Assembly (NCBI GenBank): GCA_023259135.1
Contig: JAHFQX010000004.1
Coordinates: 1-64,000 of the forward strand
Direction of reading: 5' to 3'
DNA: 64,000 bases
Origin: Betaproteobacteria bacterium
GTDB taxonomy: Bacteria; Pseudomonadota; Gammaproteobacteria; Burkholderiales; JAHFQX01
The position numbers and the translations under genes are program-made. Below, one piece after another: positions 16,270 to 61,015 of the stretch. The notes beneath the pieces were generated by a model that was not told the DNA's origin, did no database searches, and saw only the letters and a list, made by a program, of their open reading frames with translations. Positions within the stretch are counted from its first letter, which is position 1. Every line of letters starts with the position of its first letter.

Positions 16270-17508
16270 GTGGAGGTGATGGGGATGGCGACGGCGGCAA
16301 AAAAAGGCACAAAAGGCACAAAGGAATACGCCTTCGTTTGGGAAGGCAAGGATCGATCCGGCAAGATCGTCAAAGGCGACATGCGGGCCGCCGGCCAGGC
16401 GGTGGTCAATGCCACGCTGCGCCGCCAAGGCATATCGGTTATCAAGGTGAAGCGCCAGCGCACCGGCGGCGGCAGCGTCTCCGACAAGGACATCACCCTG
16501 TTCACCCGGCAGTTGGCCACCATGATGAAATCCGGAGTGCCGTTGCTGCAAGCTTTCGATATCGTCGGCAAGGGCCACAGCAACCCGGCGGTGGGCCGGT
16601 TGCTGATGGACATCAAGACCGACGTGGAAACCGGCAACAGCCTCAACCAGGCTTTCCGCAAATATCCGCTCTATTTCGATGCGTTATTCTGCAATCTGGT
16701 GGGGGCCGGCGAGCAGGCCGGCATTCTGGACAGCTTGCTGGACCGGCTGGCGACCTACAAGGAAAAAATTCTCGCCATCAAGAGCAAGATCAAGTCGGCA
16801 TTGTTCTACCCGATTTCCATCATCGTGGTGGCGTTTGTCATTACCGCGGTCATCATGATTTTCGTTATTCCCGCCTTCAAGGAGGTGTTCAAGAGCTTCG
16901 GCGCCGATTTGCCGGCCCCGACCCTGGTCGTGATGGCCATCTCCGAATTCTTCGTGAATTATTGGTACCTGATTTTCGGATCGGTGGGCGGCGGAGTCTA
17001 TGGATTCTTCTACGCCTGGAAGCGCTCGGTTCCGGTGCAGATCTTCATGGACCGGGTGCTGCTCAAGCTGCCCATCTTCGGCGACATCATCCGCAAGGCC
17101 ACGGTGGCCCGCTGGACCCGCACCCTGTCCACCATGTTCGCCGCCGGGGTGCCGCTGGTGGAGGCGCTGGATTCGGTGGCCGGGGCGGCCGGCAACTACG
17201 TGTATTTCCAGGCCACCAAGAGGATCCAAAGCGAGGTCAGCACCGGCACCAACCTGACGGTGGCGATGCAAAACTCCGAGGTGTTTCCCAACATGGTGCT
17301 GCAAATGGTCTCCATCGGCGAGGAATCGGGGTCTTTGGACGCCATGCTGAGCAAGGTCGCGGACTTCTACGAGGCGGAGGTGGACGACGCCGTGGAAGCG
17401 CTTTCCAGCCTGATGGAGCCGATCATCATGGTGGTGCTGGGAACCCTGATCGGCGGCATGGTGATAGCCATGTACCTGCCTATCTTTAAAATGGGGTCGG
17501 TGGTTTAA
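16270..17508 (+). CDS. pilC: Type IV pilus inner-membrane platform protein
   Basis: FTRQLATMMKSGVPLLQAFDIVGKGHSNP, TLSTMFAAGVPLVEALDSVAGAAGN, GEESGSLDAMLSKVADFYEAEVDD. Confidence 0.95.
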   Translation: MEVMGMATAAKKGTKGTKEYAFVWEGKDRSGKIVKGDMRAAGQAVVNATLRRQGISVIKVKRQRTGGGSVSDKDITLFTRQLATMMKSGVPLLQAFDIVGKGHSNPAVGRLLMDIKTDVETGNSLNQAFRKYPLYFDALFCNLVGAGEQAGILDSLLDRLATYKEKILAIKSKIKSALFYPISIIVVAFVITAVIMIFVIPAFKEVFKSFGADLPAPTLVVMAISEFFVNYWYLIFGSVGGGVYGFFYAWKRSVPVQIFMDRVLLKLPIFGDIIRKATVARWTRTLSTMFAAGVPLVEALDSVAGAAGNYVYFQATKRIQSEVSTGTNLTVAMQNSEVFPNMVLQMVSIGEESGSLDAMLSKVADFYEAEVDDAVEALSSLMEPIIMVVLGTLIGGMVIAMYLPIFKMGSVV

Positions 17509-17516
17509 GCTGACCG

Positions 17517-18389
17517 ATGGCATCGCTTCCGCTGCTGGCGTCCGCGAATCCCCTGCCGTTTGTGATCCTGTGCCTGGTTTTGGGGCTGGTGGTGGGAAGT
17601 TTCCTGAATGTGGTGATTCATCGCCTGCCGAAGATGATGGAGCGGGACTGGCGGCGGCAATGCGTCGAACTAGAAGGCCGGGAAGCTCCCGCCGAACCCC
17701 GTTACAACCTCTGGACCCCGGCATCGGCCTGTCCGGCCTGTGGGGCGCCGGTCACCGCTTTGCGGAACATCCCGTTGATCAGCTATGTCTTGCTGGGAGG
17801 CCGGTGCGCTGCCTGCCGAGCCCCGATCTCCCTGCGCTATCCCGTGGTGGAACTGTTGAGCGGCATACTGGCGGCTTACGCGGGCTGGCGCTACGGCGCG
17901 ACTTGGGCGACGCTGGGCGTCGCGTGTTTTGCCTTGGCCCTGGTGACCTTGACCTGCATCGACTTGGATACCCAATTGTTGCCGGATTCCATCACCTTGC
18001 CGCTGTTGTGGCTGGGGTTGCTGTTCAATGTCGGGGGGACCTTCGCCGATTTGCCCGCGGCGGTGTGGGGGGCCGCGGCCGGCTACCTGTCGCTGTGGGG
18101 CGTCTATTGGTTGTTCAAGCTGGCCACCGGCAAGGAGGGCATGGGTTATGGGGATTTCAAGCTACTGGCGGCCATCGGTGCGTGGCTGGGGTGGCAGATG
18201 CTGCCCCTGGTGATCCTGCTGTCTTCGGCGGCGGGAGCGGTGGTGGGGATAACGCTGATGATTTTCGGCGGCCGTCACCGGGACACGCCCCTGCCCTTCG
18301 GGCCTTACCTGGCGGCCGGGGGCGTGATCGGGATGTTCTGGGGGGCAAGCTGGATGGCGGCGTATTTACGGTGGGGGGTGGCAGGGTGA
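17517..18389 (+). CDS. pilD: Prepilin peptidase
   Basis: VLGLVVGSFLNVVIHRLPKMMERDW, two CxxC pairs (CPACGAPV, CAACRAP), GMGYGDFKLLAAIGAWLGW. Confidence 0.96.
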   Translation: MASLPLLASANPLPFVILCLVLGLVVGSFLNVVIHRLPKMMERDWRRQCVELEGREAPAEPRYNLWTPASACPACGAPVTALRNIPLISYVLLGGRCAACRAPISLRYPVVELLSGILAAYAGWRYGATWATLGVACFALALVTLTCIDLDTQLLPDSITLPLLWLGLLFNVGGTFADLPAAVWGAAAGYLSLWGVYWLFKLATGKEGMGYGDFKLLAAIGAWLGWQMLPLVILLSSAAGAVVGITLMIFGGRHRDTPLPFGPYLAAGGVIGMFWGASWMAAYLRWGVAG

Positions 18390-45529: not shown

Positions 45530-47556
45530 CGGGTTTTTTCCCCGGTATTGGATTCATTCGTCAGCCATGAGCGGTAAAGATTTTCCAGGCCGCCGACGAA
45601 CCGGGTCCCATCCAGCAAGGGGGAAGCTGCCAAGCGGGGGCGCAAGGCGCGGCGCCATTCCGCCAGGGTCGGGAGGTCGGCGGCGAGGGTCTGGCCGATC
45701 CGCGCGTAGCCGTCGGCATCCTCGGCGATCCAGGCTTCGAGACCGGCGGCGCGGAGGAGGGAGGCCCCCATCCGGGAAGCATGCCGCCGCCCCGGCCAGG
45801 TGATCACCGGCACCCCCATCCACAGGGCTTCGCAGGTGGTGGCGGCGCCGCCGTAGGGGTGGGTGTCCAGGGCGATGTCCACTTCCCGGTAGGCCGACAG
45901 GTGGGCGTGCCGGGTCGAGACCCAGGCCGACAAGCCGATCCGCTCCGGAGCGACGCCCTCGGCCTCGAACAAATCGAGGACGGCTTTCCGCAAGGCCGGA
46001 TCCGCCAGGCTCTGAGCTTTCAGAATCAGGCGGGAGCGGGGCACGCCCCGCAAAATCCTGGCCCACAGCCGCAGCAACTCCGGGTGGATCTTGGCGAAGT
46101 TGCCGAAGCAGCCGAAGCTCACGAAGCCTTGAGCCAGGGCCGGACTGGGTCCCGGCTGCGGCGCGTCTGCCGCGGGCCGATAGCAGAAATAACTGCCGGG
46201 CAGCCGGGCCAGGGTTTCGGTGCCGAGACGATCCGCTTCGCCTGCCGGATCGGCGACGCCGTCGGTGATGCGGTAATCCATGTTGAAAAGCCCGGTGGTG
46301 TTGGGGTAACCCAGGTAGCTGGCCTGGATGGGCGCCGCCCGCCGAGCGAAAACCCGCAGCCGGTTGCCGGCGGTATGGCCCGCCAAATCCACCAGAATCC
46401 CCACTCCGTCCCGGCGGATGCGATCCCATAGCGCATCGTCGCTCATCCCGGCGCAGGCCACCCATTGATGGCCGGTGCTCATCAAGCGCCGGCTGACGGC
46501 ATCGGGGGCGCCGTGTACATCATAGCAATAGATCTCGAATTGGCGGCGGTCGTGATGCCGCAGAATGGGCTCGATGAAATAAGCGACGCTGTGCTCCCGA
46601 AAATCCGCCGAGACATAGCCTACCCGTACCGGGATTGCGGAGGCTGGGGGCGCGGCTTTGGATGGGGCAGTTTCTTGCTCCAGCCAAGCGCCAAATTCCC
46701 GATGGGCGGCGAAAATTTGCTCCTCGCTCCATCGAGGGGCGTAGTTGGCCGCCAGCAACCGGTTGCTGCGGGGCTCCGCCCAGTCGGGGCGCAGTGCCGC
46801 AGCCTGTTCGAAGGCGGCAATGGCCGCTTCCACCCGTCCTTGCGGGAGCAAGGCGTTGCCCAGGTTGTAGTGGAACACCGCGTTGTCGGGCCGGTGCGCC
46901 AGCAATTCCCGGTAGCAGGCTTCGGCCCCGCCATAGTTTCCCTGGGCGCCCAGCGCCATCCCCAGGTTGCTGCGGGCCTCCAGAAAGTCCGGTTGAATTT
47001 CCGCCGCCCGCCGGAAATGATGTTCGGCTTCGGCTAGGCGCTCGGCATCGTGGAGCAGATTGCCCAGCAAAAAATGCAGCCGGGAGTTTTGCGGGTCCTC
47101 TTGCAGGGCTTGCCGGTAAAGGGGCTCGGCCTCGTCGGCGCGCCCCAGGTCGGCCAGGGCCCGGGCCAGACCCTCCCGCGCCGGGGCGAGCGCCGGCTCC
47201 GCCTCCAGGGCTTGCCGGAAACAGGCCGCCGCTTCCTCAAGCCGGCCCTGAGCCCGCACTACGTTGCCCAGGTTGTAGTGGAGTGGGGCGATGGCCGGAG
47301 CCAGGGCCACCGCCCGGCGAAACGCCGCTTCCGCCTCCGCCGTCCGGCCCGCCGCCTGACAGGCCAAGCCCATGCCGTTGTGGGCCTCGAAGCCGCCGGG
47401 GAAAAGCGCCGCCGCTTCCCGGAAGCGGGCCTGGGCTTCGGCGTGCCGGCCGGCGCCGCGCAGCGCTTCCCCTGCGGCGCAGAGATTTTCATAGAGGGAC
47501 GGGGGCGCCTGTTTGACCCCCAAGACTTCCCGGATGATTTTGAGCAATAAGCTCAT
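45526..47556 (-). CDS. TPR + OGT-like (SPINDLY-type) glycosyltransferase
   Basis: TPRs, then VRVGYVSADFREHSVAYFIEPILRHHD, ILVDLAGHTAGNRLRVFARRAAPIQASYLGYPNTTGL, DIALDTHPYGGAATTCEALWMGVPVITWPG. Confidence 0.93.
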   Translation of the reverse strand: MSLLLKIIREVLGVKQAPPSLYENLCAAGEALRGAGRHAEAQARFREAAALFPGGFEAHNGMGLACQAAGRTAEAEAAFRRAVALAPAIAPLHYNLGNVVRAQGRLEEAAACFRQALEAEPALAPAREGLARALADLGRADEAEPLYRQALQEDPQNSRLHFLLGNLLHDAERLAEAEHHFRRAAEIQPDFLEARSNLGMALGAQGNYGGAEACYRELLAHRPDNAVFHYNLGNALLPQGRVEAAIAAFEQAAALRPDWAEPRSNRLLAANYAPRWSEEQIFAAHREFGAWLEQETAPSKAAPPASAIPVRVGYVSADFREHSVAYFIEPILRHHDRRQFEIYCYDVHGAPDAVSRRLMSTGHQWVACAGMSDDALWDRIRRDGVGILVDLAGHTAGNRLRVFARRAAPIQASYLGYPNTTGLFNMDYRITDGVADPAGEADRLGTETLARLPGSYFCYRPAADAPQPGPSPALAQGFVSFGCFGNFAKIHPELLRLWARILRGVPRSRLILKAQSLADPALRKAVLDLFEAEGVAPERIGLSAWVSTRHAHLSAYREVDIALDTHPYGGAATTCEALWMGVPVITWPGRRHASRMGASLLRAAGLEAWIAEDADGYARIGQTLAADLPTLAEWRRALRPRLAASPLLDGTRFVGGLENLYRSWLTNESNTGEKTR

Positions 47557-49670
47557 GGCAGCCGCGAGATCATGGCTTCCAGCTCGCGCCGCAAGGCCCG
47601 GGCGAAGCGGGGCCCGTCGCATAGCGGCGAAGCCGCCATGCGCTGGCGCAGGCCGGCCCGCAATTTTGCCAGCGCCGCTGGATCGGCGGCCCGTTGCGCC
47701 GCCCGTTCGACGTAATCGGCGGGATTCCGGGCGACCCATTCATGCAGTCCCAGGTTGGCGAGGGTGCTGAGGGAGTGGCGAGCGGGAAAAGTCTGCCCCG
47801 GCCAAGTCAGCACCGGAACGCCCATCCACAGAGCTTCCAGGGTGGTGGTGCTGCCGGTGAAGGGGAAGGGGTCCAGGGCGATGTCCACCGCCTCGTAACG
47901 CGCCAAATGGGCCGCGTGGGGGGAGCGGCCTTCGATGAGCAGCCGGTCTTCGCCGATGCCGTGCTGCCGGAACTGGTCCGTATAGCGCTGCCGGGTCGCG
48001 GAACATTCCAGCGCCGGGGTCTTGAGAAGCAGCCGGGAGCCCGATACCCGATGGAGAACCTCGCTCCACACGGCGACCACCTGGGGAGTGATTTTGCTCA
48101 GGATGTTGAAGCTGCCGAAGGTGATGCAGCCCGTTGCCAGGCAAGGCGGCGGCGCCACAGCCGGGGCATAGGCGGGGGGATCGTAGCAGATGAAGGCGTC
48201 GGGCATGCGCACCAGCCGCTCCGCGTAGTCGGCACAGGCCGAGGCCGGGGTTTCGTGGTCGTCGGTAATCAGGTAATCCATCGCGTCTAGCCCGGTGGTG
48301 GCCATGTAGCCCGCCCAACTGATCTGAATGGGGGCGGGTTTGCGGGCGAAGGCCGGCAGCCGGTTGCGGGCATTGTGGCCGGTCAGATCGAACAGAATGT
48401 CCACCCGGTCTTCTCGGATCAACTCCGCCAGGGCCGCATCGTCCATGCCCAGGACATTGCGCCAGGCGTCGGCGGCAGCCATGAAACGGCGGGTGAGATC
48501 GTCTTCCTCCCACTGATTGGCGTAGCAAATGATTTCGCACCAGGGCAGTCCCAGGGCTTCCTTGATGCGTCCCCGCAAGGAGGGTGCCGGACCGGCGCGG
48601 CGCAAGGCTTCCAGGGGGCGGATAACCAAGTGGCCCACCGGATGGGTGCGGAAATCTCCCGAAACGAAACCGATGCGCGGTCGGCGGCGACGGCGGTTGA
48701 GAAAGGGGGGCGGCGCGATATCCCCGCATTCCCCGTGGCGTTCGTTCCATTCCCGATGCTGGCGCAGCACCGTTGCCGGGGTGGTTTCCGGCAAGAACAA
48801 GGCCGAGTAGATCAGATTGCTGTGGGCCATGGAGAAATCCGGGCGCACGGCCAGGGCGTGACGGAAAGCCTCCAGAGCCTCGCCCATTCTGCCTTGGGTT
48901 TTGAGGGTGCTGCCGAGGTTGTTCCAGGCTTCCGCGTACTCGGGACGCAATGCTATCGCCCGGCGGTAGCAAGCCGTCGCCGCTTCCAGCCGGTGGGTCT
49001 CGCGCAGGGCGTTGCCCAGGTTGTAGTGGGCCTCCGGATAGTTCTCGTCGAAGCCGATGGCGGCCCGGTAGCTTTGAATCGCGCGGGCATAATCGCCATC
49101 CTGCTGATGGGCGTGGCCCAAACTGTTGTGAGCCGCGGCCCAATCGGGCCGTAGCCCCAGGCAGCGTTGCCAATGGGCGGCCGCCTCTTGCCAATCGCCG
49201 CCGTCGGCCAGCGTCAAGCCCAGGTTGTAATAGGCTTCGGCGAAACTCGGGCGCAGCGCCACGGCGTCCCGGTAGCAAGCGATGGCTCCGTGGCTGTCGC
49301 CTTGTTCCCGCAGCAGGTTCCCAAGCTTGTAACGGGCATCCGCATCCTCGGGAGCCGCGGCGATGAGCCGACGGTAGCAATTTTCCAAGGTTGGCGCGGG
49401 ACCGGCCCGACTCAGGATCAGGGCGTAGTTGCTGAGCATGTCCGGAACTTCTCCGGACCCCGCCAAGGCTTGTTCCAGGAGTTGTCGGGCGGTGGCGAGG
49501 TCGCCCTGCTGATAAGCGATCACGCCCAGCATGTGCAGGGCATCGAAGCAATGCGGGTTTTGCGCCAGCGCTTCTCGATAGACGGCCGCGGCCTGTTCCA
49601 GTTGCCCGGCTTGGTGATACCGGGTGGCAATGACAAGAAGATTCTCGGTGGACGGAGGAGCGACGCTCAT
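47553..49670 (-). CDS. TPR + OGT-like (SPINDLY-type) glycosyltransferase, paralogue of the downstream gene
   Basis: TPRs, then RIGFVSGDFRTHPVGHLV, ILFDLTGHNARNRLPAFARKPAPIQISWAGYMATTGL, DIALDPFPFTGSTTTLEALWMGVPVLTWPG. Confidence 0.93.
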   Translation of the reverse strand: MSVAPPSTENLLVIATRYHQAGQLEQAAAVYREALAQNPHCFDALHMLGVIAYQQGDLATARQLLEQALAGSGEVPDMLSNYALILSRAGPAPTLENCYRRLIAAAPEDADARYKLGNLLREQGDSHGAIACYRDAVALRPSFAEAYYNLGLTLADGGDWQEAAAHWQRCLGLRPDWAAAHNSLGHAHQQDGDYARAIQSYRAAIGFDENYPEAHYNLGNALRETHRLEAATACYRRAIALRPEYAEAWNNLGSTLKTQGRMGEALEAFRHALAVRPDFSMAHSNLIYSALFLPETTPATVLRQHREWNERHGECGDIAPPPFLNRRRRRPRIGFVSGDFRTHPVGHLVIRPLEALRRAGPAPSLRGRIKEALGLPWCEIICYANQWEEDDLTRRFMAAADAWRNVLGMDDAALAELIREDRVDILFDLTGHNARNRLPAFARKPAPIQISWAGYMATTGLDAMDYLITDDHETPASACADYAERLVRMPDAFICYDPPAYAPAVAPPPCLATGCITFGSFNILSKITPQVVAVWSEVLHRVSGSRLLLKTPALECSATRQRYTDQFRQHGIGEDRLLIEGRSPHAAHLARYEAVDIALDPFPFTGSTTTLEALWMGVPVLTWPGQTFPARHSLSTLANLGLHEWVARNPADYVERAAQRAADPAALAKLRAGLRQRMAASPLCDGPRFARALRRELEAMISRLP

Positions 49671-49700: not shown

Positions 49701-51326
49701 CTACGGCCGGTAGCCGGGAATGGCCGTAACGTCCACCGCGTCGATTTGGTGAGGATCGAGGAACTGTTCGGCGTATCGGAGGTAGACCTGGTCGCGGACG
49801 AAGATGTCGAAGAGGTCCGGATCGATGTGGCCGTTGAGCTTGAATTTGCCCAGGATGGCGAGGGCCTCGGTCAGGGATTTGCCTTTTTTATAGGGCCGGT
49901 CCTTGGCGGTGAGGGCCTCGAAGATGTCGGCGATGGCCATGATCCGCGCCTGCACCGACATCTGCTCCCGAGTGAGGCCTCGGGGATAGCCTTTTCCGTC
50001 CATGCGCTCGTGGTGGCCGCCGGCGTATTCGGGAACGTTGCGCAGATGGTTGGGCCAAGGCAGCGATTCGAGCATGGTGATGGTGACTTCGATGTGATGG
50101 TTGATCACCTGGCGCTCCTCGGCGGTCAGGGTTCCGGAGCGGATGGCAAGATTGGCGACCTCCTCCTCGGTAAGGAAGGGGGCGTCCTTTCCGTGGGGAT
50201 CTTTCCATCGATAGCGCTGGGCGAGGGTGCGGATGCGCTCGACATCCTCGTCGCGCATGGCTTCGGAGCCGATATTGCAATGCCGGAGGAACTCCCGGTC
50301 CAAATCGTACTGCCGCAGCCGTTCCTTGAAATCTTGCTCCAGCCGGGACAAGGTATCGACGTCGCCCTGGGCGGCGGCGCCGGCCCGCAGCCACTCGATC
50401 TCGGCGTCCCGCTTGAGCACCTCGAAGCGGGTGTCGATCAGGTGGATGCGGTCGAACAGGGTTTGCAGCTTGGTGGCTTTGTCCACCACATGCACCGGAG
50501 TGGTGACCTTGCCGCAATCGTGGAGCAGGCTGGCGATTTTAAGCTCATGCCGGTCCAGGTCGCTCATCCTGAAATCCTTGAAGGCGCCGATGGATGCGTC
50601 GTTGACGGCCTCCGCCAGCAGCATGGTGAGCTCCGGCACCCGCTGGCAATGGCCCCCGGTGTAGGGGGACTTGTCGTCGATGGCGGCGTTGATCAATTGG
50701 ATAAACGCCTCGAACAGCTCTTCCAGTTGATTGATGAGCAGCCGGTTGGTCAGCGCGACGGCGGCCTGGGAGGCGAGGGATTCGGCCAGATGCTGATCGG
50801 CCTCGGAGAACGGCGCGATCTCGCCGGAGGCCGGATGGCGGGCGTTGATGAGCTGCAACACGCCGATCACCTGATTCTCGTGATTCTTCATCGGCACCGT
50901 CAGGAAGGATTTCGACCGGTAGCCGGTATTTTGGTCGAAGCGCTGGGTGCCGCTGAAATCGAAGCCTGCCTCGGTGTAGGCGTCGGCGATGTTGACGGTT
51001 TTCTCGTTCAGGGCGGAGTAGGCCGCCACCATGCTGTTGTTGGGACGCCCTTCGGCGTCGTAAAGCGGCAGCGGGGGAAAGGGAATGGGCCGGCCCGAGG
51101 TTCCCCCCATGGCGATTCCCAGGCTGTCGGTGCGCATGATTTCGAAGCGCAGTTGTCCATTCACTGCCCGGTACAGGGTGCCGCCGTCGGCGTGGGTGAT
51201 GGTCTTGGCGGCCACCAGAATGTTCTCCAGCAGCCGGTCGATATTCCTTTCCTGGGAAAGAGCAGTGCCGATGCGGGTGAGCTGCTCCAGGCGATAGAAC
51301 AGGTCGGCGAAGGGGGGGCGGTCCAT
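49701..51326 (-). CDS. GAF + HD-GYP domain protein (putative c-di-GMP phosphodiesterase)
   Basis: GAF NTGYRSKSFLTVPMKNHENQVIGVLQLINA; HDCGK; HHERMDGKGYPRGLTREQM; ADIFEALTAKDRPYKKG. Confidence 0.92.
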   Translation of the reverse strand: MDRPPFADLFYRLEQLTRIGTALSQERNIDRLLENILVAAKTITHADGGTLYRAVNGQLRFEIMRTDSLGIAMGGTSGRPIPFPPLPLYDAEGRPNNSMVAAYSALNEKTVNIADAYTEAGFDFSGTQRFDQNTGYRSKSFLTVPMKNHENQVIGVLQLINARHPASGEIAPFSEADQHLAESLASQAAVALTNRLLINQLEELFEAFIQLINAAIDDKSPYTGGHCQRVPELTMLLAEAVNDASIGAFKDFRMSDLDRHELKIASLLHDCGKVTTPVHVVDKATKLQTLFDRIHLIDTRFEVLKRDAEIEWLRAGAAAQGDVDTLSRLEQDFKERLRQYDLDREFLRHCNIGSEAMRDEDVERIRTLAQRYRWKDPHGKDAPFLTEEEVANLAIRSGTLTAEERQVINHHIEVTITMLESLPWPNHLRNVPEYAGGHHERMDGKGYPRGLTREQMSVQARIMAIADIFEALTAKDRPYKKGKSLTEALAILGKFKLNGHIDPDLFDIFVRDQVYLRYAEQFLDPHQIDAVDVTAIPGYRP

Positions 51327-51382: not shown

Positions 51383-53755
51383 CTATTTGATGCAGACCGC
51401 CCGCACCTGGAGCATGTCGGTGATGCCCTGCAGCACCTTCTCGACCCCGTCCTGCTTCAAGGTGTGCAATCCTTCTTCCAGGGCGGTCACCAGCATTTCC
51501 GCCACCCGGGCGTGCTCCTGGATGTTTTTCTTGATGGCGTCGGTGCCGATCAAGAGCTCGTGGAGCCCCACCCGGCCCTTGTAGCCGCTGCCGTTACAGG
51601 TCTCGCAGCCCACCGGGGCGTAGAGGGTGAATTGGCCTTGTTCGTTGGCGAACAAGCGAACCCAGTCTTTATAAATGCGCTCATAAGCGGCTTTGGGATC
51701 TTGTTGCCAGCTCGGAAGATTTTTCAGTTCCTGGCAGTACTCCTCCAGCAACAGATGAATTTCCTCCTCGCTGGCGACATGAGGTTGCTTGCACTTGGCG
51801 CAGAGCCGCTTGGCCAGGCGCTGGGCCAATATGCCGAGCAGCGCGTCGGCGAAGTTGAAGGGGTCCATGCCCATGTCCAACAGCCGGATAATGCTTTCCG
51901 TGGCGCTGTTGGTGTGCAGAGTGGCGAACACCAAGTGTCCGGTGAGGGAGGCTTCGATGCCGATGGAGGTGGTTTCCTTGTCGCGCATCTCGCCGACCAT
52001 GATGATGTCGGGATCGGCCCGCAGGAATGCCTTCATGGCGGTGGCGAAGTTGAGACCCGCCTTGGGGTTCATCTGCACTTGGCGCAGGCCTTTTTGGGTG
52101 ATCTCCACCGGGTCTTCGGCGGTCCAGATTTTGTTCTCCGGGGTGTTGAGATAGCCCAGCACCGAGTGCAGCGTGGTGGTCTTGCCGGAGCCGGTGGGGC
52201 CGCACACGAAGAACAGCCCGTAGGGCTTGTCGACGGTTTCCTTGACCAGCTTGGCGTTGCGCTCGCTCAAACCCAGCTTGTCCAGGGGGATGGGCTCGCC
52301 GGCGGCCAGGATCCGCATCACGATGTCCTCCACCCCGCCCTGGGACGGAATGGTGGCCACCCGCAGCTCGATGTCCAGCGGGCCGAATTTCTTGAATTTG
52401 ATCTTGCCGTCCTGGGGCTTGCGCTTCTCCGAAATATCCAGATCGCACATGATCTTGATGCGGGCGACGATGGCGTTGCGGTAGCTGGCCGGCACCGAAA
52501 TGTAGGGAGCCAGGGAGCCGTCCTTGCGGAAGCGGATTTCGGTCTTGGCTTTGCCGGGGTAGGGCTCGATGTGGATGTCCGAAGCCCCTTGATGGTAGGC
52601 ATCGACGACGATCTTGTTGACCAGCTTGACCAGTTCGTTGTCGGCCGCGGCGGAAGCTTCGTCGGCGGCGCCGGGGCCCTCCTCGGATTCGTCGTCCATG
52701 TTCGACAGCAGATCGCCGATGGAGGTGGTGTCCATGGAATCGGCGCCGCCGAAGAGCAAATCCAGGGTGGCGATGAACTCGCGATGGGAGCAAACCCGGT
52801 ATAGCAGTTTGTTTTTCGGAAAGACGTTGTTGACCACCTTGGAACTTTTCGCCCGCTCCGGATCGGTGGTCAGGATCACCAAGCCGTCCTTGGTATCATC
52901 CACCGGCACCCACTGGCTGCTTTCGGCGTAATCGCGCTTGAGGTTTTTCAGCAGATCCACGGGCTTGACGCGGTCGGCCCGAAAGGGCTCGTAGGGCACC
53001 TGGAAAAACTTGCCGAGCGCCTCGCCCAGGGCTTGGGGTTTGATTTGGAATTCGTCCAACAGGACGTCTTCCACCGTCAGCCCTTTTCTCCGGGCGGAAC
53101 GGGTGGCCAGCTCCAGCTCGTCGGCGGACAGCACGGCATCGGCAACCAGGTAATCATATTTGCCCCTGATAACGTCCTGGGCCTTCTGGCGCTGGCGGAA
53201 AGCGATGGCCAGGGTTTCCGCCAATTGAACAATGCCTTCTTCGCACAACGGCGAGAAAGGGGCGCCCGATTTGCTGTTGATGAGCTGCACCACCCCGATC
53301 AGATCCTGATTGCCGGCATCCACCACGGGAGCCACCAGCATCTGCTTGGTGCGATATCCGGTGCGCCGGTCCACTTCCTTGAGGAATCTTAGATGGGGGC
53401 TGAGCCGGGCTAGCTCTTGGTCGTCGTAGACATCCCGAATATGGATGGTCTTTTTGTTGACGGCGACGAATCCGGCGACGCTCTGTTCGTTGATGGGCAG
53501 GCGCAGATCCTTGAAGGAATTCAGGCCGGTCTTGACCTTGGAGACGATGGATTGATTGTCTTCGCCCACTACGTATATGGTGAGCCGGTCGGCATCGAAG
53601 AGGGCGCAGACATCCTGGCTCACCTCCAACATGATTTCGTCGATGTTGTTGGTGGCGTGGATTTTGTTGGCGACCGCCTGCAATCTCCGGGAAAACTCCA
53701 GCTTCTCGGTCAGATTATCGGCAGGGGCGGGACGGGTTTCCAGTACGCTACTCAT
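51383..53755 (-). CDS. GAF-fused type II/IV secretion ATPase (PilB/GspE-like)
   Basis: GAF RRTGYRTKQMLVAPVVDAGNQDLIGVVQLINSKSG; Walker A CGPTGSGKTTTLHSVLG; DPDIIMVGEMRDKETTSIGIEASLTGHLVFATLHTNSA; Cys4 C..C/C..C zinc motif. Confidence 0.94.
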   Translation of the reverse strand: MSSVLETRPAPADNLTEKLEFSRRLQAVANKIHATNNIDEIMLEVSQDVCALFDADRLTIYVVGEDNQSIVSKVKTGLNSFKDLRLPINEQSVAGFVAVNKKTIHIRDVYDDQELARLSPHLRFLKEVDRRTGYRTKQMLVAPVVDAGNQDLIGVVQLINSKSGAPFSPLCEEGIVQLAETLAIAFRQRQKAQDVIRGKYDYLVADAVLSADELELATRSARRKGLTVEDVLLDEFQIKPQALGEALGKFFQVPYEPFRADRVKPVDLLKNLKRDYAESSQWVPVDDTKDGLVILTTDPERAKSSKVVNNVFPKNKLLYRVCSHREFIATLDLLFGGADSMDTTSIGDLLSNMDDESEEGPGAADEASAAADNELVKLVNKIVVDAYHQGASDIHIEPYPGKAKTEIRFRKDGSLAPYISVPASYRNAIVARIKIMCDLDISEKRKPQDGKIKFKKFGPLDIELRVATIPSQGGVEDIVMRILAAGEPIPLDKLGLSERNAKLVKETVDKPYGLFFVCGPTGSGKTTTLHSVLGYLNTPENKIWTAEDPVEITQKGLRQVQMNPKAGLNFATAMKAFLRADPDIIMVGEMRDKETTSIGIEASLTGHLVFATLHTNSATESIIRLLDMGMDPFNFADALLGILAQRLAKRLCAKCKQPHVASEEEIHLLLEEYCQELKNLPSWQQDPKAAYERIYKDWVRLFANEQGQFTLYAPVGCETCNGSGYKGRVGLHELLIGTDAIKKNIQEHARVAEMLVTALEEGLHTLKQDGVEKVLQGITDMLQVRAVCIK

Positions 53756-53854: not shown

Positions 53855-54619
53855 TCAGAACTCGAAAATGTCCCCATTGCGGAGCATTCTGGGGTGGTGG
53901 GCGCCGGCGTCACGCTCTACCTCGCTCATGGTGAGCTCTATCTCGCTGGGCTTCAAGTGGGTAATGTAGATTTCGGCCGGACGCCGGAGCTTGGCCAACT
54001 CCTCGGCCAGCATGCTCGGACAAAGATGCATGGAGTCTATCGCCAGGCCTTTTTCCCTATTGCAGAAAGCCGTTTCGATGATCAAGTAGCGCAGATTGTC
54101 GATCCGGTTCACTTCGTCCCACAAGGCATCGTTGGTGGTGGTGTCCCCGCTAAACACCAGGCTGGCAGCCCCGCTGTCGATACGGTATCCGACCGCGGGA
54201 ACGACGTGCTTGGCGGGGAGCGGCGTGATTTTCCGCTTGCCGAGGCGCACCGTTTGCCCCAGCGCCACCGCGCTGTAGCGCATGAAGGGATTTTCGGGAT
54301 TGGGGATGCGGGTGAAATCCGGCCATAGCTTCCAATTGAACAGATGCTCCCGAAGAATCTCCAGGGTCGGATCTATGGCATGCACCGTAATGGGCCGGTT
54401 CCGCATGCAGCCGACGGTATCCACCAGGAAGGGAATGCAAGCGACGTGGTCCAAATGGGAATGGGTGACGAAGACATGACCGATCCGGGCCAAGGCATCG
54501 AGGGGCAAATTCCCCACCCCCGTTCCGGCATCGATCAGGATGTCATCGTCCAGCAGCATGGACGTCGTCCGAAGCTCTCCGCCGATGCCGCCGCTGCAAC
54601 CCAGTATGCGCAGTTTCAT
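53855..54619 (-). CDS. Class II-like 3',5'-cyclic-nucleotide phosphodiesterase (metallo-beta-lactamase fold)
   Basis: VFVTHSHLDHVACIPFLVD; FSGDTTTNDALWDE; ETAFCNREKGLAIDSMHLCPSMLAEELAKLRRPAEIYITHLKPSE. Confidence 0.82.
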   Translation of the reverse strand: MKLRILGCSGGIGGELRTTSMLLDDDILIDAGTGVGNLPLDALARIGHVFVTHSHLDHVACIPFLVDTVGCMRNRPITVHAIDPTLEILREHLFNWKLWPDFTRIPNPENPFMRYSAVALGQTVRLGKRKITPLPAKHVVPAVGYRIDSGAASLVFSGDTTTNDALWDEVNRIDNLRYLIIETAFCNREKGLAIDSMHLCPSMLAEELAKLRRPAEIYITHLKPSEIELTMSEVERDAGAHHPRMLRNGDIFEF

Positions 54620-54625
54620 GAATGG

Positions 54626-56848
54626 TTATTTGGTTTCGAATGTGAAAACCCCATCCCAGTCCGCCCCCGGGGGGGCGGCGCGGAAATGGGCGATACGCTC
54701 AAGGTAAAGGGCGTACAGCGTTGCCTGGGGGGCTGCCTTTTGCAGGTTCAGGAGTTGCAGTTCGGCCATGTCCCACTCTTGACGCCGATAATGCCGCAGC
54801 GCCTTGGCGAAAAGCTCCAGCTCATCCAGCCGGCCTTGCTCCACTTCGCCGATCAAGCCGATGGGCTCGAAGATGGCCACCGGCTCTTCCTTGCCCTTGA
54901 CCTTGACCCGGTCGATCTCCCGGAACGCCATGTCGGGCACCCAGGCGCGGGTCTGTTCGCCGACTATCATACCCACCCCGTACTGTTTTGTGATCCCCTC
55001 CAGCCGGGAAGCCAGGTTCACGGCATCTCCCATCACCGTGTAGGCCAGGCGGATTTCCGAGCCCATGTTGCCCACGCTCATGCGGCCGCTGTTGACCCCG
55101 ACGCCGACGCGGATTTCCGGCCAGCCTTCGGCCTTGAAATGGGGCTGCAGCGCGTCCAGCGTGGCTTGCAGCTCCATGCCCGCCAGCACGGCGTTGCGGG
55201 CATGATCGGGATCGGCCAGCGGCGCTCCCCAGAATGCCATGATGCAATCCCCCATGTATTTGTCGATGGTGCCCCGATGCTTATAGATGACCCGGGTCAG
55301 GGGAGTCAGGAACTCGTTCATCAAACGACTCAGTTCCTTCGGGTCCAGGCCCTCCGAAATGGTGGTGAAGCCCCGGACATCGGAGAACAGCACCGACATC
55401 TCCCGGCTTTCCCCTTCCATGGAGAAGCTTTCCGGATTCTGGCTCATCTCGTCCACCAATTCGGGGGGCACGTACTGGCCGAACAGCCCGGTGATTTGCC
55501 GCTTGGCCCGGGTTTCGACGAAGAACCCGTAGGACATGTTGAAAGCGAACAACAGAAAAATCATCAGGATTCCCGAGGCGATGGGCAGCACGATATTGCC
55601 GTAGTGCCAAGCCGCGACGTTGACGACCAGGGCGCCCCCGAGCACGATGCAAGTGACCAGCGATCCCTTGAAGGGGCTCAGAACCGGCAGCAACAAGGCG
55701 AGCAGCAGGCCAGAAACGAACAGCGACGCTACTTCGGCGCCGATGACGTAGGGGGGTTTTTGGGGAATCTTCTGATCCAGCATCCCGGCGATGAGATTAG
55801 CGTGAATTTCCACTCCCGGATAGACCGGCGCCACCGGGGTAGAACGCAGGTCCAGCAGCCCCGGCGCGGTGGTGCCGATCAAGGCGATCTTGCCTTTCAA
55901 GGCCGCTACCGGGACCCGCTCCCGCAGCACATCGGAGACGGAGATGTACGGAAAGCTTCCTTGGGGACCCCGGTAAGGAACCAGGGTGGAAACGATTTCG
56001 TCAACGGGAATCCGTATCGGGCCGACTTCCAGCCACTCTAGCCCGGTGTAGTCCTGGGAAGCGGCTTCCTCGGTGAACCCCGGCACCACCGGAGGGGAAC
56101 CCAGCAAGGCGCGGATCACGGCCAGCGACAAGGATTCGTAATAGGCGCCTTGATATTCCGCCAGCATGGGAACCCGCCGGGAAACCCCGTCTTCGTCCAC
56201 CCACGGATTGAAGTGCCCGGCTCCGGCCGCGTTCTTGACGAACTCGGGAAGATTTGAGCCATAGCCCGACCAAGTGGTGAAACCGACGGGGCGGCCGGCG
56301 AAAGCATCGGGCCCTAAAACGGGCGGGGGCAGCAGGCCGGATTTGGTGCCCTGGCCGGGAGCGTCGCCACTGCTAAAATAATAGCCCAGCACCACTTTGC
56401 GCCCCCGCATTTTTCTGGCGAACACCTCGTCATGCTGGAGACCGGGGCGCACCGCGCTCAAGGCCGACTGGAATTCCTTCACCCCCTTGAGCTGCTTGCG
56501 TCCCAGGTCTTCCAGGACTTTCAGGCCAGAACTTTCGTCTCGCTCGGCGAAAACCACGTCAAAACCGACGACGGCGATGCCGTAGTGGTCGAACAGCTTG
56601 TCCAGCAGTAATCCGAGGCGGTCCCGGCGCCAAGGCCAGCGGCCCTCCTCGGCCAGGCTTTTTTCGTCGATATCTAGAACGACTACGCGCTGATCCACGG
56701 TGCGCGGCATGGTCAGGCGAACCCGCGCGTCGTAGGCGATAGCCTCCAGCCGGCGGATCAATGGAGCGTCGTAGATTTTCGCGGCGTAGCCGACGAATAG
56801 GGCGACGATGATCAGCCCCCCGACAATGCGGATCAGATGCTTCTTCAT
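54626..56848 (-). CDS. CHASE2-domain class III adenylate cyclase
   Basis: N-terminal TM + CHASE2 (VVVLDIDEKSLAEEGRWPWRRDRLGLLLDKL), 3 TM, cyclase LFSDVRGFTTISEGLDPKELSRLMNEFLTPL, GTIDKYMGDCIMAFWGAPLADPDHA, AYTVMGDAVNLASRLEGITKQYG. Confidence 0.94.
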   Translation of the reverse strand: MKKHLIRIVGGLIIVALFVGYAAKIYDAPLIRRLEAIAYDARVRLTMPRTVDQRVVVLDIDEKSLAEEGRWPWRRDRLGLLLDKLFDHYGIAVVGFDVVFAERDESSGLKVLEDLGRKQLKGVKEFQSALSAVRPGLQHDEVFARKMRGRKVVLGYYFSSGDAPGQGTKSGLLPPPVLGPDAFAGRPVGFTTWSGYGSNLPEFVKNAAGAGHFNPWVDEDGVSRRVPMLAEYQGAYYESLSLAVIRALLGSPPVVPGFTEEAASQDYTGLEWLEVGPIRIPVDEIVSTLVPYRGPQGSFPYISVSDVLRERVPVAALKGKIALIGTTAPGLLDLRSTPVAPVYPGVEIHANLIAGMLDQKIPQKPPYVIGAEVASLFVSGLLLALLLPVLSPFKGSLVTCIVLGGALVVNVAAWHYGNIVLPIASGILMIFLLFAFNMSYGFFVETRAKRQITGLFGQYVPPELVDEMSQNPESFSMEGESREMSVLFSDVRGFTTISEGLDPKELSRLMNEFLTPLTRVIYKHRGTIDKYMGDCIMAFWGAPLADPDHARNAVLAGMELQATLDALQPHFKAEGWPEIRVGVGVNSGRMSVGNMGSEIRLAYTVMGDAVNLASRLEGITKQYGVGMIVGEQTRAWVPDMAFREIDRVKVKGKEEPVAIFEPIGLIGEVEQGRLDELELFAKALRHYRRQEWDMAELQLLNLQKAAPQATLYALYLERIAHFRAAPPGADWDGVFTFETK

Positions 56849-56967: not shown

Positions 56968-57636
56968 CTATGAGTTCTTGAGGAAGAATTCCATCTTGAC
57001 CCCGGCCAGTTCGATGACGTCATGGTCGTTCAAGGGATGGGCCTGGGCGTCCAGATTCTGGCCGTTGACGATGGGGAAGTGAGTTCCTTCCACGTGGGTG
57101 ATGAAATAACCATGGGGCCGGCGGGCGATCACCGCCACCTGCACGCCGGGTTTCCCGAGGGTGGTCAAGTTCTTGGTGAGGACCAGTTCCTTGCCCACTC
57201 CCGGCCCGCTGATAATCTGGATGGCGGCCAACGGGGGTTCGGCAGCCTGGGCGGCGGGGGTTGCCGTGCTGGAAGGCGTGGCATGGGCCGCGGCGGGGGG
57301 GCGCAGTATCATGGTCTTCTCGAAATCCTCCGCCGCCGGCTTGACGGCAGTGTCGCCGATGTACTTGAGCTTGTATTTGCCGATTTCGATGACGTCGTTG
57401 TTTTGCAGAAAGTGTTTCTTGATGGGGTTGCCGTTGACCAGGGTGCCGTTGGTGCTGTTGAGATCCTCCAAAAACGAATCGTGCAGGATCGTCGTCACCG
57501 CCGCATGGTCGCCGCTGACCGCCAGGTTGTCGATGATCACATCGCTGGTGGGTTTCCGGCCGATGACGACCCGCTCCTTGTCGAGAGGTACTTCCCGGAT
57601 CACCATGTCGTCAATGCTGAGAATCAGTTTTGCCAT
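56968..57636 (-). CDS. FHA-domain protein (one canonical, one degenerate FHA)
   Basis: VVIGRKPTSDVIIDNLAVSGDHAAV...DLNSTNGTLVNGNPI; second C-terminal FHA-like segment lacks the conserved R/S/H residues. Confidence 0.9.
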   Translation of the reverse strand: MAKLILSIDDMVIREVPLDKERVVIGRKPTSDVIIDNLAVSGDHAAVTTILHDSFLEDLNSTNGTLVNGNPIKKHFLQNNDVIEIGKYKLKYIGDTAVKPAAEDFEKTMILRPPAAAHATPSSTATPAAQAAEPPLAAIQIISGPGVGKELVLTKNLTTLGKPGVQVAVIARRPHGYFITHVEGTHFPIVNGQNLDAQAHPLNDHDVIELAGVKMEFFLKNS

Positions 57637-57652
57637 GAGGGAACCTCGTTCG

Positions 57653-58477
57653 CTACTTGAGCCAGGATAAAAAGCGGCGCAACCAACCATCGTCCGCGGG
57701 GAAAGGGTGAAGAATCTTGACCAGCACGGCGGACACGTTGTCCTTGCCGCCATTATCGTTGGCGGCCTGTATGAGCCGATTCGCCGCCAATTGCGGGTCG
57801 GCGCCGAAATGCCGCAGGGTTTCGCCCATGCGCTCATCCTCCACCATGTCATTCAGTCCGTCGGAGCACAGCAAGTAAATATCTTCCGGCCTGGTGTCAT
57901 GGGTGTGAATTTCCGGCTCCACTGCGGGATCCACGCCCAGGGCGCGCGTGACCAGATTTTTGTTCCGGGACAGCCGGGCGTCCTCCTGGGTGATAAGCCC
58001 GCTGTCGATTTGCTCCTGAAGCAAGGAGTGATCCCGCGTCAATTGCCGCAGTTCCCCCGCGCGCAGCCGGTAAAGCCGGGAGTCCCCGATGTGGGCGACG
58101 CTCAACTGATTATCGTAGAACAAGGCGGCCACCAGGGTGGTCCCCATCCCGGCGTATTGAGGGCGGCTTTGGGCCGCTCGGTAGATGTAATCGTTGGCTT
58201 GGACGACTTTGTCCCGCAACAGATGTTCGATGTCTTTTTGCTCGGCATGGCGCGGAATGTGGCCATTCCACTCGTCGAATTGTCGATTCATTTCTTCCCG
58301 CAGCACCGCCACCGCCATGCCGCTGGCCACTTCTCCGGCATTGTAGCCCCCCATGCCGTCGGCCAGCACCACGAAGCCGATTTCCGCGTTCCAGCCTATG
58401 GCGTCCTCGTTGTGGGCGCGGACCAGCCCGGTATGGGTGGCGCTGGCGATGCGCAAAGCGTGTCCGACGCCGGCCAT
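57653..58477 (-). CDS. PP2C-family Ser/Thr phosphatase (Stp1 type)
   Basis: ASATHTGLVRAHNEDAIGWNAEIGFVVLADGMGGYNAGEVAS; HIGDSRLYRLRAGELRQLTRDHSLL; LCSDGLNDMV; KDNVSAVLV. Confidence 0.95.
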   Translation of the reverse strand: MAGVGHALRIASATHTGLVRAHNEDAIGWNAEIGFVVLADGMGGYNAGEVASGMAVAVLREEMNRQFDEWNGHIPRHAEQKDIEHLLRDKVVQANDYIYRAAQSRPQYAGMGTTLVAALFYDNQLSVAHIGDSRLYRLRAGELRQLTRDHSLLQEQIDSGLITQEDARLSRNKNLVTRALGVDPAVEPEIHTHDTRPEDIYLLCSDGLNDMVEDERMGETLRHFGADPQLAANRLIQAANDNGGKDNVSAVLVKILHPFPADDGWLRRFLSWLK

Positions 58478-58483
58478 GGGCCT

Positions 58484-61015
58484 TTATCCTTGGCCTTGGG
58501 GGGGGAGCGTGGCGGCGCAGTGCCGCAACGCTTGGGCCAATTCGCCGCCGGTCTGGTAGCGCTGCCCGGGATCCTTGGCCAGCGCTTTGTCGATGATCTG
58601 GGCCACGCAAGGAGGCGTATCGGGATGCAACTGGCGAATGTCGGGATGGGGTTCGTTGGCGATCTTGAACATCAATTGCGCCATGGAATCTCCCTGGAAC
58701 GGGAGTTGCCCGCAGGTCAATTGATATAAAGTCACCCCCAGAGAGAACAGGTCGGAACTCCCCCCCACCTTCTTGCCGGAAAGCTGTTCGGGAGACATGT
58801 AGGAGGGGGTGCCCAGCACCATGCCGGTCTTGGTTTTGCTGGAATCGGTGATGCGGGCGATGCCGAAGTCGGTGACCTTGACGGCGTCGCCGGCGGCTTC
58901 ATACATGATGTTGGCTGGCTTGATATCCCGATGCACGACGTTCAAACCATGGGCATAATCCAGGGCATCGGCGACCCGGGCGACGATGCTCAGCACCACG
59001 GGCAGCGACAGCAGTTGGCCCGGCTTGGTATGGGGCGCCAAATCGTGGCCTTTGAGGAACTCCATGGCGATGTAGGCGAGATCGTGCTCCTCGCCGGCAT
59101 CGAAGATCGTCACGATATTGGGATGGTTAAGACGGCCGGCGGTTTCGGCTTCGCGGAAAAAGCGGCTTTTCGCTTCTTCCAATTCGTCGGCCTCGAATTC
59201 CTGGGATAGGGCCATGGTTTTGATGGCCACCACCCGCCCGATTTTCGGGTCCTTGCCGAGATACACCACTCCCATGGCCCCCTTGCCCAATTCCTTCTCC
59301 ACTTGATAGCGCCCCAGCATGGGTTTTTCCACCGCGCCGCTTTCAGGGGTCAGGATGCTGGCGTTGGAGCGGGGGTTGCTGCCTCCCAGAATCACCGTTT
59401 CGGCCATGGCCTTGGCGCGGGACAGGCGTTGCTCCAAATCCCGGAATTTGGGGTTGTGGTCCGACATGTAGCGGAATACCGCCTCGGCTTTGTTGAATTG
59501 CCGCTTGCGCTCGAAGTCCAAGGCCAGATTGTAGAGGCTGTCCAGTAGCGTGTCGTCCACCGGGCATTTGCGGAATTTGTCGAAGGCCATGTCCAACTGG
59601 CCCTGCCCCTGAAAAGCGAGACCCAGCATCCGGTTGCTTTCCGCCGAGTCTGCGTCGGACTTGAGCTTGCCGCGCTCGGTCACCAAGAAGCGCTTGGTGG
59701 TCAGCACCAGGTGGCCGACGACCAGTAAGGTGGCGGGAACCATCAGTTGCAGCCACATGAGCTGGGTCGCCAGCAAGGAGAACTGGGCCGCCAACACGGC
59801 GATCAACAATGCCGCGGTGAGGGCCGCGCCGGCGCCGGCCTGCAAGCGGGGCAGCAGCAGGATGATGTAGAGCGCCACCAGTAGAAAGGCGGCTTTCTCC
59901 GCCCAAACCGCCCACGCCGGAGCGGTGACGAAATCGCCCTTGAGAATGCTGGAGACCGCGTGGGCCAGAGTCAGTACCGGGGCCATCGCCGGAGAGACGG
60001 GGGTGACCATGTGGGTACCGATGCCGGTGGCGGTGGCGCCGACGAGGACGATTTTATCCCGGTATTTTTCGGGGGCGATTTTTCCCGTATAGACGTCGTA
60101 AAAAGAATCCACCTGGAACGCGGGCCGTCCTTCCGAGCCGCGGTAATAATAGGTATACATCTGGGAGTAGGGGTCGGTGGCGATCTTGATCTGGCCCAAG
60201 GCCACTTCTTCTCCCAGCCGCACCCGCAGGTCTTGCGTGTCCAGGTTGGCGGCTTTGGCCGCCAGCATGAGGGACAGGGAGGGAAAATACTGGTTGTAGT
60301 ACCGGACCAACAGGGGTTCGCTGCGCACCGCGCCGTCCACGTCGGGAATCGCGTTGACGTGGCCCAGCCCGGCGGCCTGCTGTCCCAATGCTTCCAAGGG
60401 ATAGAGGATGGACGTGGCCGGCGGGGGAAGCAAGCCGTTGGCGATGGCCCCCCCGGGGTCGGCAACCTGGGTCGCGGCGCGGCTTGCCACCCAGCCGGGC
60501 AAGGGGCGGTCCGGGTTGCCCGCGGGCTCTCCCAGGCGAAATTGCATTGCCATCAAAACGCGCCCGGAACGGCTCAGGGATTCGGCCAGTTTGCGGTCAG
60601 TGTTGAGAGTCTGCTCCGCTTCCTGAAGGGTGCTGCCGAATTCGCCGTTGGGGTGCGGGGCGGCCTCTTGCAGGGCCATCAGCCGATTGATGTAGGCCAA
60701 TCCCCGGTCGACTTCCGGTTCGGAATAGAGCACCGTCAACCCGATCGCCTTGGCTTGAGCGGCGGACAGCAGATCCACCATTTTGGCCTGGATGTCCCGG
60801 GGCCAGGGCCACCGGCCGAGGTTGGCGATGCTGGGGTCGTCGATGGCGATGACCGCCACCTGGGGGCTGGGCTGCCGTTGGGACAGGCCAATGCCGATAT
60901 CGTAGGCTTTGCGTTCCAGGCTCTGCAGCAGATCGGTTCCCGAGGTCAGCAGCAACACCAGGGAAAGGATCACTCCCGCGAACCAGTCGGTTTTCCAAAA
61001 GCCGGTCTTGCCCAT
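58484..61015 (-). CDS. CHASE2-sensor transmembrane Ser/Thr protein kinase
   Basis: CHASE2 (VAVIAIDDPSIANLGRWPWPRDIQAKMVDLL), 3 TM, TPR-like linker, kinase GRYQVEKELGKGAMGVVYLGKD, VVHRDIKPANIM, TDFGIARI, YMSPEQLSG. Confidence 0.95.
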   Translation of the reverse strand: MGKTGFWKTDWFAGVILSLVLLLTSGTDLLQSLERKAYDIGIGLSQRQPSPQVAVIAIDDPSIANLGRWPWPRDIQAKMVDLLSAAQAKAIGLTVLYSEPEVDRGLAYINRLMALQEAAPHPNGEFGSTLQEAEQTLNTDRKLAESLSRSGRVLMAMQFRLGEPAGNPDRPLPGWVASRAATQVADPGGAIANGLLPPPATSILYPLEALGQQAAGLGHVNAIPDVDGAVRSEPLLVRYYNQYFPSLSLMLAAKAANLDTQDLRVRLGEEVALGQIKIATDPYSQMYTYYYRGSEGRPAFQVDSFYDVYTGKIAPEKYRDKIVLVGATATGIGTHMVTPVSPAMAPVLTLAHAVSSILKGDFVTAPAWAVWAEKAAFLLVALYIILLLPRLQAGAGAALTAALLIAVLAAQFSLLATQLMWLQLMVPATLLVVGHLVLTTKRFLVTERGKLKSDADSAESNRMLGLAFQGQGQLDMAFDKFRKCPVDDTLLDSLYNLALDFERKRQFNKAEAVFRYMSDHNPKFRDLEQRLSRAKAMAETVILGGSNPRSNASILTPESGAVEKPMLGRYQVEKELGKGAMGVVYLGKDPKIGRVVAIKTMALSQEFEADELEEAKSRFFREAETAGRLNHPNIVTIFDAGEEHDLAYIAMEFLKGHDLAPHTKPGQLLSLPVVLSIVARVADALDYAHGLNVVHRDIKPANIMYEAAGDAVKVTDFGIARITDSSKTKTGMVLGTPSYMSPEQLSGKKVGGSSDLFSLGVTLYQLTCGQLPFQGDSMAQLMFKIANEPHPDIRQLHPDTPPCVAQIIDKALAKDPGQRYQTGGELAQALRHCAATLPPQGQG

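Follow-up and report, generated by a model that had tools for sequence, protein, structure and literature searches.

A GAF-Containing Assembly ATPase of Betaproteobacteria as a Candidate cAMP-Gated Pilus Motor

A gene located at positions 51383..53755 of the window, which is the whole 64,000-nucleotide stretch of DNA that was analyzed, encodes an assembly ATPase of the GspE/PilB type in which the motor domain is preceded by a GAF domain and a degenerate MshEN domain. This protein, called here GAF-ATPase, is probably an orphan motor of the type IV pilus (T4P)/T2SS class in which the second messenger has been swapped relative to MshE. In other words, the c-di-GMP motif has been lost, and the GAF domain would bind a cyclic mononucleotide, most likely cAMP. 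Direct control of assembly ATPases by second messengers is so far known, in the literature searched, only for c-di-GMP in proteins of the MshE type. If the proposal is true, the T4P motor would be switched faster than transcription allows, and this can be tested directly on one purified protein.

Domain Architecture and ATPase Motifs

The 790 aa open reading frame is encoded on the minus strand and begins with an ATG at 53755, while the plus strand of 51383-53755 is not the coding strand for this protein. According to Pfam, the product consists of a GAF domain at residues 38-185 (42.8 bits, cut-off 22.4), an MshEN domain at residues 252-340 (36.3 bits, cut-off 23.1), and a T2SSE domain at residues 371-784 (387 bits). 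This agrees with the original prediction, made for the same segment, of a secretion/pilus ATPase with an N-terminal GAF of the phosphodiesterase (PDE) type. The GAF segment quoted at that time, RRTGYRTKQMLVAPVVDAGNQDLIGVVQLINSKSGAPFSPLCEE, is present at residues 130-173. The fusion is not a chance event: 77 aligned orthologues have an ATPase with the same GAF subtype, which also occurs in 28 of 60 relatives, always as one copy per genome and in an open reading frame of about 790 aa or longer.

The T2SSE domain (51404..52645, minus strand) was delimited by Pfam and by motif conservation. In an alignment of 78 sequences, composed of the window protein and the 77 orthologues, the Walker A motif, the Asp box, the Walker B motif with its catalytic Glu, and the His box are invariant or nearly so, and the zinc-site tetracysteine (Cys652/655/717/720) is kept. 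Conservation of all these motifs suggests that GAF-ATPase should hydrolyze ATP. At the same time, its NCBIfam scores lie under the cut-offs of the PilB equivalog TIGR02538 (488 bits, cut-off 676), the GspE equivalog TIGR02533 (439 bits, cut-off 630), and TfpB, NF053534 (380 bits, cut-off 850); therefore, it belongs to none of these named subfamilies. An AF2 model of the full-length protein, built from 34 aligned sequences, reached a mean pLDDT of 65, with the ATPase part under 50, and a pTM of 0.32, and it was used solely for the secondary structure of the N-terminal half.

The GAF Pocket and the Degenerate MshEN Domain

The GAF domain of the motor (53201..53644, minus strand) is of the cyclic-nucleotide type, as judged by Pfam, a PDB sequence search, AF2, and Foldseek. 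When residues 1-193 were compared by phmmer with all PDB sequences, CyaB2 was the best match (2e-28), and further matches were PDE10A, PDE2A, PDE5A, PDE6, PmGH, and cAMP-bound Lcd1. The sole match outside the cyclic-nucleotide (cNMP) group was one sensor kinase at the edge of the list. A profile of the GAF family returned the PDB matches in the same order. The AF2 model of this domain is confident (pLDDT 86.5, pTM 0.82), and its top Foldseek matches were CyaB2, PmGH, PDE5A, PDE2A, PDE10A, PDE6, and the Lcd1-cAMP complex. Thus, the resemblance to cNMP-binding GAFs of phosphodiesterases and CyaB-type cyclases, noticed earlier from the sequence alone, holds for both sequence and fold. PmGH (4mcw), the GAF of a Persephonella HD-GYP protein, stands among the nearest relatives by both measures and may itself be a cNMP receptor.

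The GAF-B domain of CyaB2 touches cAMP through R291, T293, I308, D356, and N359 (PMC4411481), and sequence alignment places R57, T59, V74, D129, and T132 of the motor at these positions. The first two, which correspond to adenine contacts, lie in the R57-L58-T59 segment (53579..53587, minus strand). V74 (53534..53536, minus strand) takes the place of the ring contact I308 and is V, I, or L in 77 of 78 sequences and Y in one, a conservative replacement that leaves this fifth position hydrophobic. D129 and T132 belong to the lid helix D129-R-R-T132-G133 (53357..53371, minus strand). Pocket conservation had been set beforehand as the test able to refute the original prediction, and R57, T59, D129, and T132 proved invariant in 78/78 sequences, as did G133. 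In effect, four of the five contact positions are invariant, compared with 21 of 148 GAF positions overall (P = 0.0014). The R, T, and D extend to eight gammaproteobacterial GAF-ATPases, in which T132 is T or S and an aromatic residue occurs at V74. Between orthologues, conservation amounts to 66% in the GAF versus 60% in the MshEN-like part.

A different reading is that the GAF is mainly a dimerization or docking module, which shapes the hexamer or its localization and has no ligand in the cell. GAF domains of CyaB2 and PDEs dimerize, and the long C-terminal GAF helix of the AF2 model could serve dimerization or docking as well. However, few positions of the domain are as conserved as those that line the pocket, which is unexpected for a pure scaffold, and this reading is quite improbable.

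The NKFDE region (residues 160-172; 53240..53278, minus strand) is incomplete. N160, F167, and E172 are kept, while K is replaced by S161 and D by C171, in line with the earlier remark that only part of this motif was present. Across the betaproteobacterial family, K is changed to S or N and D to C, A, M, or V, and the complete motif is not found. NKFDE occurs in most, but not all, characterized cyclic-nucleotide GAFs (PMC4411481). Residues of the K/D type make no contact with the ligand, yet PDE2 and PDE5 mutated at such residues bind cGMP less well or not at all (PMC11977230). With its incomplete motif, the motor GAF is not filed here as a proven cyclic-nucleotide-binding GAF. Additionally, residues 113-123 in the lid region form a family-specific insertion relative to CyaB2.

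The loss of the salt-bridge residues of NKFDE and the lid insertion would fit a second reading, in which a PDE-like pocket holds some other small ligand, a nucleotide or a metabolite, and the neighboring proteins act by phosphorylation and not through cAMP. For instance, a GDP-binding GAF was reported in DcpA (PMC8846402). Against this stand the nearest structures, almost all of which are cNMP-GAFs, and the invariance of the contact residues of the CyaB2 type; another ligand is therefore considered unlikely. An attempt to tell cAMP from cGMP by the pocket was rejected, as the R is present in GAFs for cAMP (CyaB2, PDE10) as well as for cGMP (PDE5). As this residue is common to both, only the cyclase signature described below points to cAMP. 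The genome encodes eight GAFs at the Pfam threshold, and the family GAF model matches only the two of this operon.

The MshEN-like domain (residues 196-335; 52751..53170, minus strand) presents the other half of the proposed exchange, as its 24-residue c-di-GMP motif, searched with the regular expression of PMC5013675, is destroyed. In its relaxed form, this motif reads RLGxx(L/V/I)2xxG(L/V/I)2xxxxLxxxLxxQ, and a c-di-GMP receptor has two copies of it (PMC5013675). No copy was found in any of 79 betaproteobacterial or eight gammaproteobacterial GAF-ATPases, whereas the motif is present in 12/12 full-length sister ATPases with another N-terminal region and no GAF (L010-L029). The ATPases encoded on contigs C31 and C39 of the same genome, used as positive controls, have two copies each. 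In L030 (a 465-aa open frame) and the other PilB-type entries listed below it, neither a GAF nor the MshEN motif was detected. In the gammaproteobacterial sisters L010, L012, L016, L021, L022, L024, L027, and L029, two small repeats plus MshEN repeats replace the GAF, and this N-terminal region is unrelated to it.

In the tree of ATPase domains, the gammaproteobacterial GAF group falls outside a strongly supported clade composed of the non-GAF sisters and the betaproteobacterial GAF clade. This topology indicates that the sensor swap happened once or a few times. With so few independent events, the contrast between proteins with GAF and without the motif, on the one hand, and their sisters, on the other, is suggestive and does not amount to statistical proof. 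Many independent losses of the c-di-GMP motif together with gain of GAF were also considered and rejected, as the tree allows only few events. A dual sensor, responding to c-di-GMP via MshEN in addition to cAMP, was rejected too; the motif is gone, and the wording 'dual cAMP/c-di-GMP sensor' is thus refuted.

A Conserved Operon with a Class III Cyclase

In 80 orthologous loci, the recurrent gene order of this betaproteobacterial operon is CHASE2-kinase, PP2C, FHA, CHASE2-cyclase, hydrolase, GAF-ATPase, and GAF-HD-GYP. Among loci with enough flanking DNA, GAF-ATPase is linked to the hydrolase in 67/78, to HD-GYP in 63/73, to FHA in 58/66, to PP2C in 55/64, to the cyclase in 55/69, and to the kinase in 44/60. 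Even in the rearranged loci L109 and L110, the cyclase, HD-GYP, and hydrolase genes adjoin the ATPase, in opposite direction. In L048, L055, L058, L063, L068, L070, L074, and others, the hydrolase and ATPase genes are separated by about 1 kb, a gap that the window does not have.

In the window, all genes of the operon are on the minus strand. The first encodes a CHASE2-Ser/Thr kinase (58484..61015, Pfam), and it is followed by a Ser/Thr phosphatase of the PP2C (Stp1) type (57653..58477; NCBIfam, 254 bits, cut-off 230) and an FHA-domain protein (56968..57675), the start of which is uncertain within a longer open reading frame, 56968-57852. The likely role of these three proteins is to adjust either the cyclase or the motor. 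Next comes a CHASE2-class III nucleotidyl cyclase with a K/T (adenylyl) signature (54626..56848), assigned by Pfam and motif conservation. Its motifs FSD, DKYMGD, YTVMGD, VN, and SR are conserved in 59/59 sequences. They contain the two metal-binding Asp residues, the substrate Lys, the adenine-specifying Asp/Thr, and the transition-state Asn and Arg. Lys and Thr at the base-recognizing positions, together with all catalytic residues, constitute a class IIIb adenylyl signature, and the predicted product of this enzyme is cAMP.

Between cyclase and motor lies the gene for a hydrolase of the metallo-beta-lactamase fold, a candidate class II cAMP phosphodiesterase (53855..54619, Pfam). The PDEase_II match (43.0 bits, cut-off 23.7) extends over 60 residues only, Lactamase_B_2 scores 69.5, NF041851 reaches 44 bits against a cut-off of 400, and RNase Z-like matches are higher, also under cut-off. 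The metal motifs of the hydrolase are intact and conserved, and its role as a cAMP phosphodiesterase is plausible. Hence, the cyclase and the phosphodiesterase-like gene do lie immediately upstream of the motor and on the same strand, as had been pointed out before.

Downstream of the motor, a 541 aa GAF-HD-GYP protein (49701..51326; Pfam HD_5, 148 bits) contains the second cyclic-nucleotide-type GAF of the operon as well as the HDCGK and HHERMDGKGYP motifs. PDE5 and CyaB2 are the closest PDB matches of this GAF, which also include PmGH. The position of CyaB2 R291 is occupied there by G or A, and its pocket therefore differs from that of the motor GAF. Just downstream of the operon, at 43475-49670 on the minus strand, three large TPR proteins are encoded in a row, each with a C-terminus resembling O-GlcNAc-transferase (SPINDLY), and similar proteins come after the operon in many orthologous loci.

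Co-occurrence was assessed within the order to which the window belongs, in 60 genomes, of which 28 have this GAF and 32 lack it. A class III cyclase is present in 28/28 genomes with the GAF versus 17/32 without (Fisher 1.1e-5). The association persists with one genome per family (6e-5), to which the control for phylogeny was limited, and for genomes of at least 2.5 Mb (0.002). The cyclase lies within 6 kb of GAF-ATPase in at least 18 of the 28 genomes. In the loci of Nitrosomonas and Methylophilaceae it is unlinked, and all those genomes encode class III cyclases elsewhere; a lack of any cyclase there would have spoken against cAMP as the ligand. Operon conservation and cyclase co-occurrence thus support a cyclic-nucleotide ligand of the motor GAF. 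The reading with another small ligand could draw on the orthologues without a linked cyclase and on the kinase, phosphatase, and FHA genes, which are linked to the motor too, but it has to face the strict co-occurrence with class III cyclases.

It was also considered whether gammaproteobacterial GAF-ATPases share the operon. This was rejected, as a cyclase or hydrolase/HD-GYP gene is nearby in 2/8 of them versus 1/12 non-GAF loci, and most of these proteins do not adjoin a cyclase. The genome of the window has nine CRP-type cNMP domains over the cut-off, which means that cAMP has other receptors there. The window itself contains one CRP-type cNMP_binding domain (about 23325-23561, plus strand; 54.7 bits), which is part of a 474-aa open frame.

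Taken together, the suggestion that the motor is gated by a cyclic nucleotide is favored by the pocket, the operon, and the cyclase co-occurrence as far as the ligand is concerned, while the missing K/D pair of NKFDE, the lid insertion, the loci without a linked cyclase, and the other cAMP receptors of the genome speak against it.

The Machine Served, the Proposed Switch, and Known Systems

The genome inventory comprises four assembly-type ATPases, three PilT/PilU-type ATPases, and three platform proteins. No platform gene lies beside GAF-ATPase, which makes it an orphan. The C31 and C39 ATPases each adjoin platform genes and pilin-like genes, the ATPase on contig C70 is TfpB (908 bits, cut-off 850), and none of the ATPases of the genome is a PilB over the curated cut-off. 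A pilC-like platform protein is encoded in the window at 16285..17508 on the plus strand with no adjacent assembly ATPase, and it is a candidate site of motor action. Therefore, TfpB and GAF-ATPase are the candidates for PilC. The pilC-pilD pair is followed by coaE- and zapD-like genes (16285-18389, plus strand), and pilB is absent upstream, where the genes resemble a dioxygenase gene and encode a regulator of the LysR type, respectively.

All 30 genomes with orthologues encode platform proteins and PilT-family proteins over the cut-off. Canonical PilB is absent from 15 of the 28 PilT-positive relatives that have GAF-ATPase and from 3 of the 25 that do not (P = 0.0017; P = 0.003 with one genome per family). 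A genome counted as lacking PilB when nothing scored over the curated cut-off, below which a divergent PilB could hide. This enrichment supports, without proving, a role as a T4P extension motor. A less probable alternative is that the GAF does sense cAMP but the ATPase works with a platform of the T2SS or MSHA type, or dominantly regulates other assembly ATPases, and is no extension motor at PilC. The orphan gene, scores under both the PilB and the GspE cut-off, and the chance that the C31 and C39 platforms are shared despite their own ATPases would suit such an arrangement. However, these two platforms already have adjacent ATPases and pilC has none, and GAF-ATPase is enriched in just those genomes that possess PilT and lack PilB. 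The presence of TfpB, a second orphan that could serve PilC, counts against assigning GAF-ATPase to PilC. On balance, the 'secretion/pilus' label of the original prediction can be narrowed, and the type IV pilus appears the likelier machine, given this enrichment and the lone pilC.

The T4P motor reading can be formulated as a sequence of steps. CHASE2 sensing would raise the level of cAMP, made by the CHASE2-adenylyl cyclase encoded two genes upstream of the motor, and binding of cAMP would close the lid of the motor GAF. Lid closure could then shift the C-terminal GAF helix (residues 169-195), and through it the change would reach the MshEN-like domain and the ATPase domain of the hexamer. 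This shift would switch either hexamer activity, by activation or inhibition, or docking on the platform, most likely PilC. The metallohydrolase encoded between cyclase and motor may remove cAMP and end the signal, and the same cAMP pulse may be felt by the GAF-HD-GYP c-di-GMP phosphodiesterase encoded downstream, lowering c-di-GMP in parallel.

A broader version may tentatively be put forward. In many Betaproteobacteria, the T4P extension motor would be a cAMP-gated GAF-ATPase instead of PilB, c-di-GMP control would have been exchanged for control by cAMP, and the CHASE2 cyclase operon would set both pilus extension and the c-di-GMP level, bypassing Vfr/CRP. If true, this would provide an extension motor for many betaproteobacterial genomes with PilT and without canonical PilB, as well as a post-translational route from cAMP to the pilus.

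No pilus motor fused to a GAF or gated by cAMP is described in the open literature searched, and an earlier mention in a genome survey is possible. GAF domains go unmentioned in a 2024 review of PilB control, which presents cAMP solely as a transcriptional input via Vfr (PMC11656802). In the Pil-Chp/CyaB/Vfr system of Pseudomonas aeruginosa, type IV pili are likewise under cAMP control, but cAMP acts there through the transcription factor Vfr (PMC11656802), whereas a direct post-translational input is predicted here. TfpB, the second extension motor of Acinetobacter baylyi, is similarly an orphan assembly ATPase not located beside pilC, and it works on T4P (PMC8213720); unlike GAF-ATPase, it has no GAF, and a separate TfpB exists in this genome.

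On the sensor side, the Anabaena adenylyl cyclases CyaB1 and CyaB2 (1YKD; PMC4411481) provide the closest GAF by sequence and fold, with the R, T, hydrophobic, and D contacts kept. GAF-ATPase differs from them in its single GAF, its pilus/secretion-type ATPase output, the lost K and D of NKFDE, and the lid insertion. Single-GAF bacterial proteins activated by cAMP are known, namely Lcd1 (GAF-GGDEF) and Tlr0485 (GAF-HD-GYP) (PMC8846402). The latter has the same architecture as the product of the gene downstream of the motor. The outputs of both are c-di-GMP enzymes, while the output here is a motor.

The nearest precedent on the motor side is MshE of Vibrio cholerae (PMC5013675), which is also a PilB/GspE ATPase with an N-terminal receptor domain for a second messenger, and the MshEN fold is still recognizable in GAF-ATPase. 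In contrast to MshE, the protein described here has no c-di-GMP motif, and a cNMP-type GAF is placed in front. The parts are thus known from c-di-GMP-gated MshE ATPases and from cAMP-gated GAF enzymes such as CyaB2, Lcd1, and Tlr0485; what would be new, in the open literature searched, is the proposed GAF-gated assembly ATPase.
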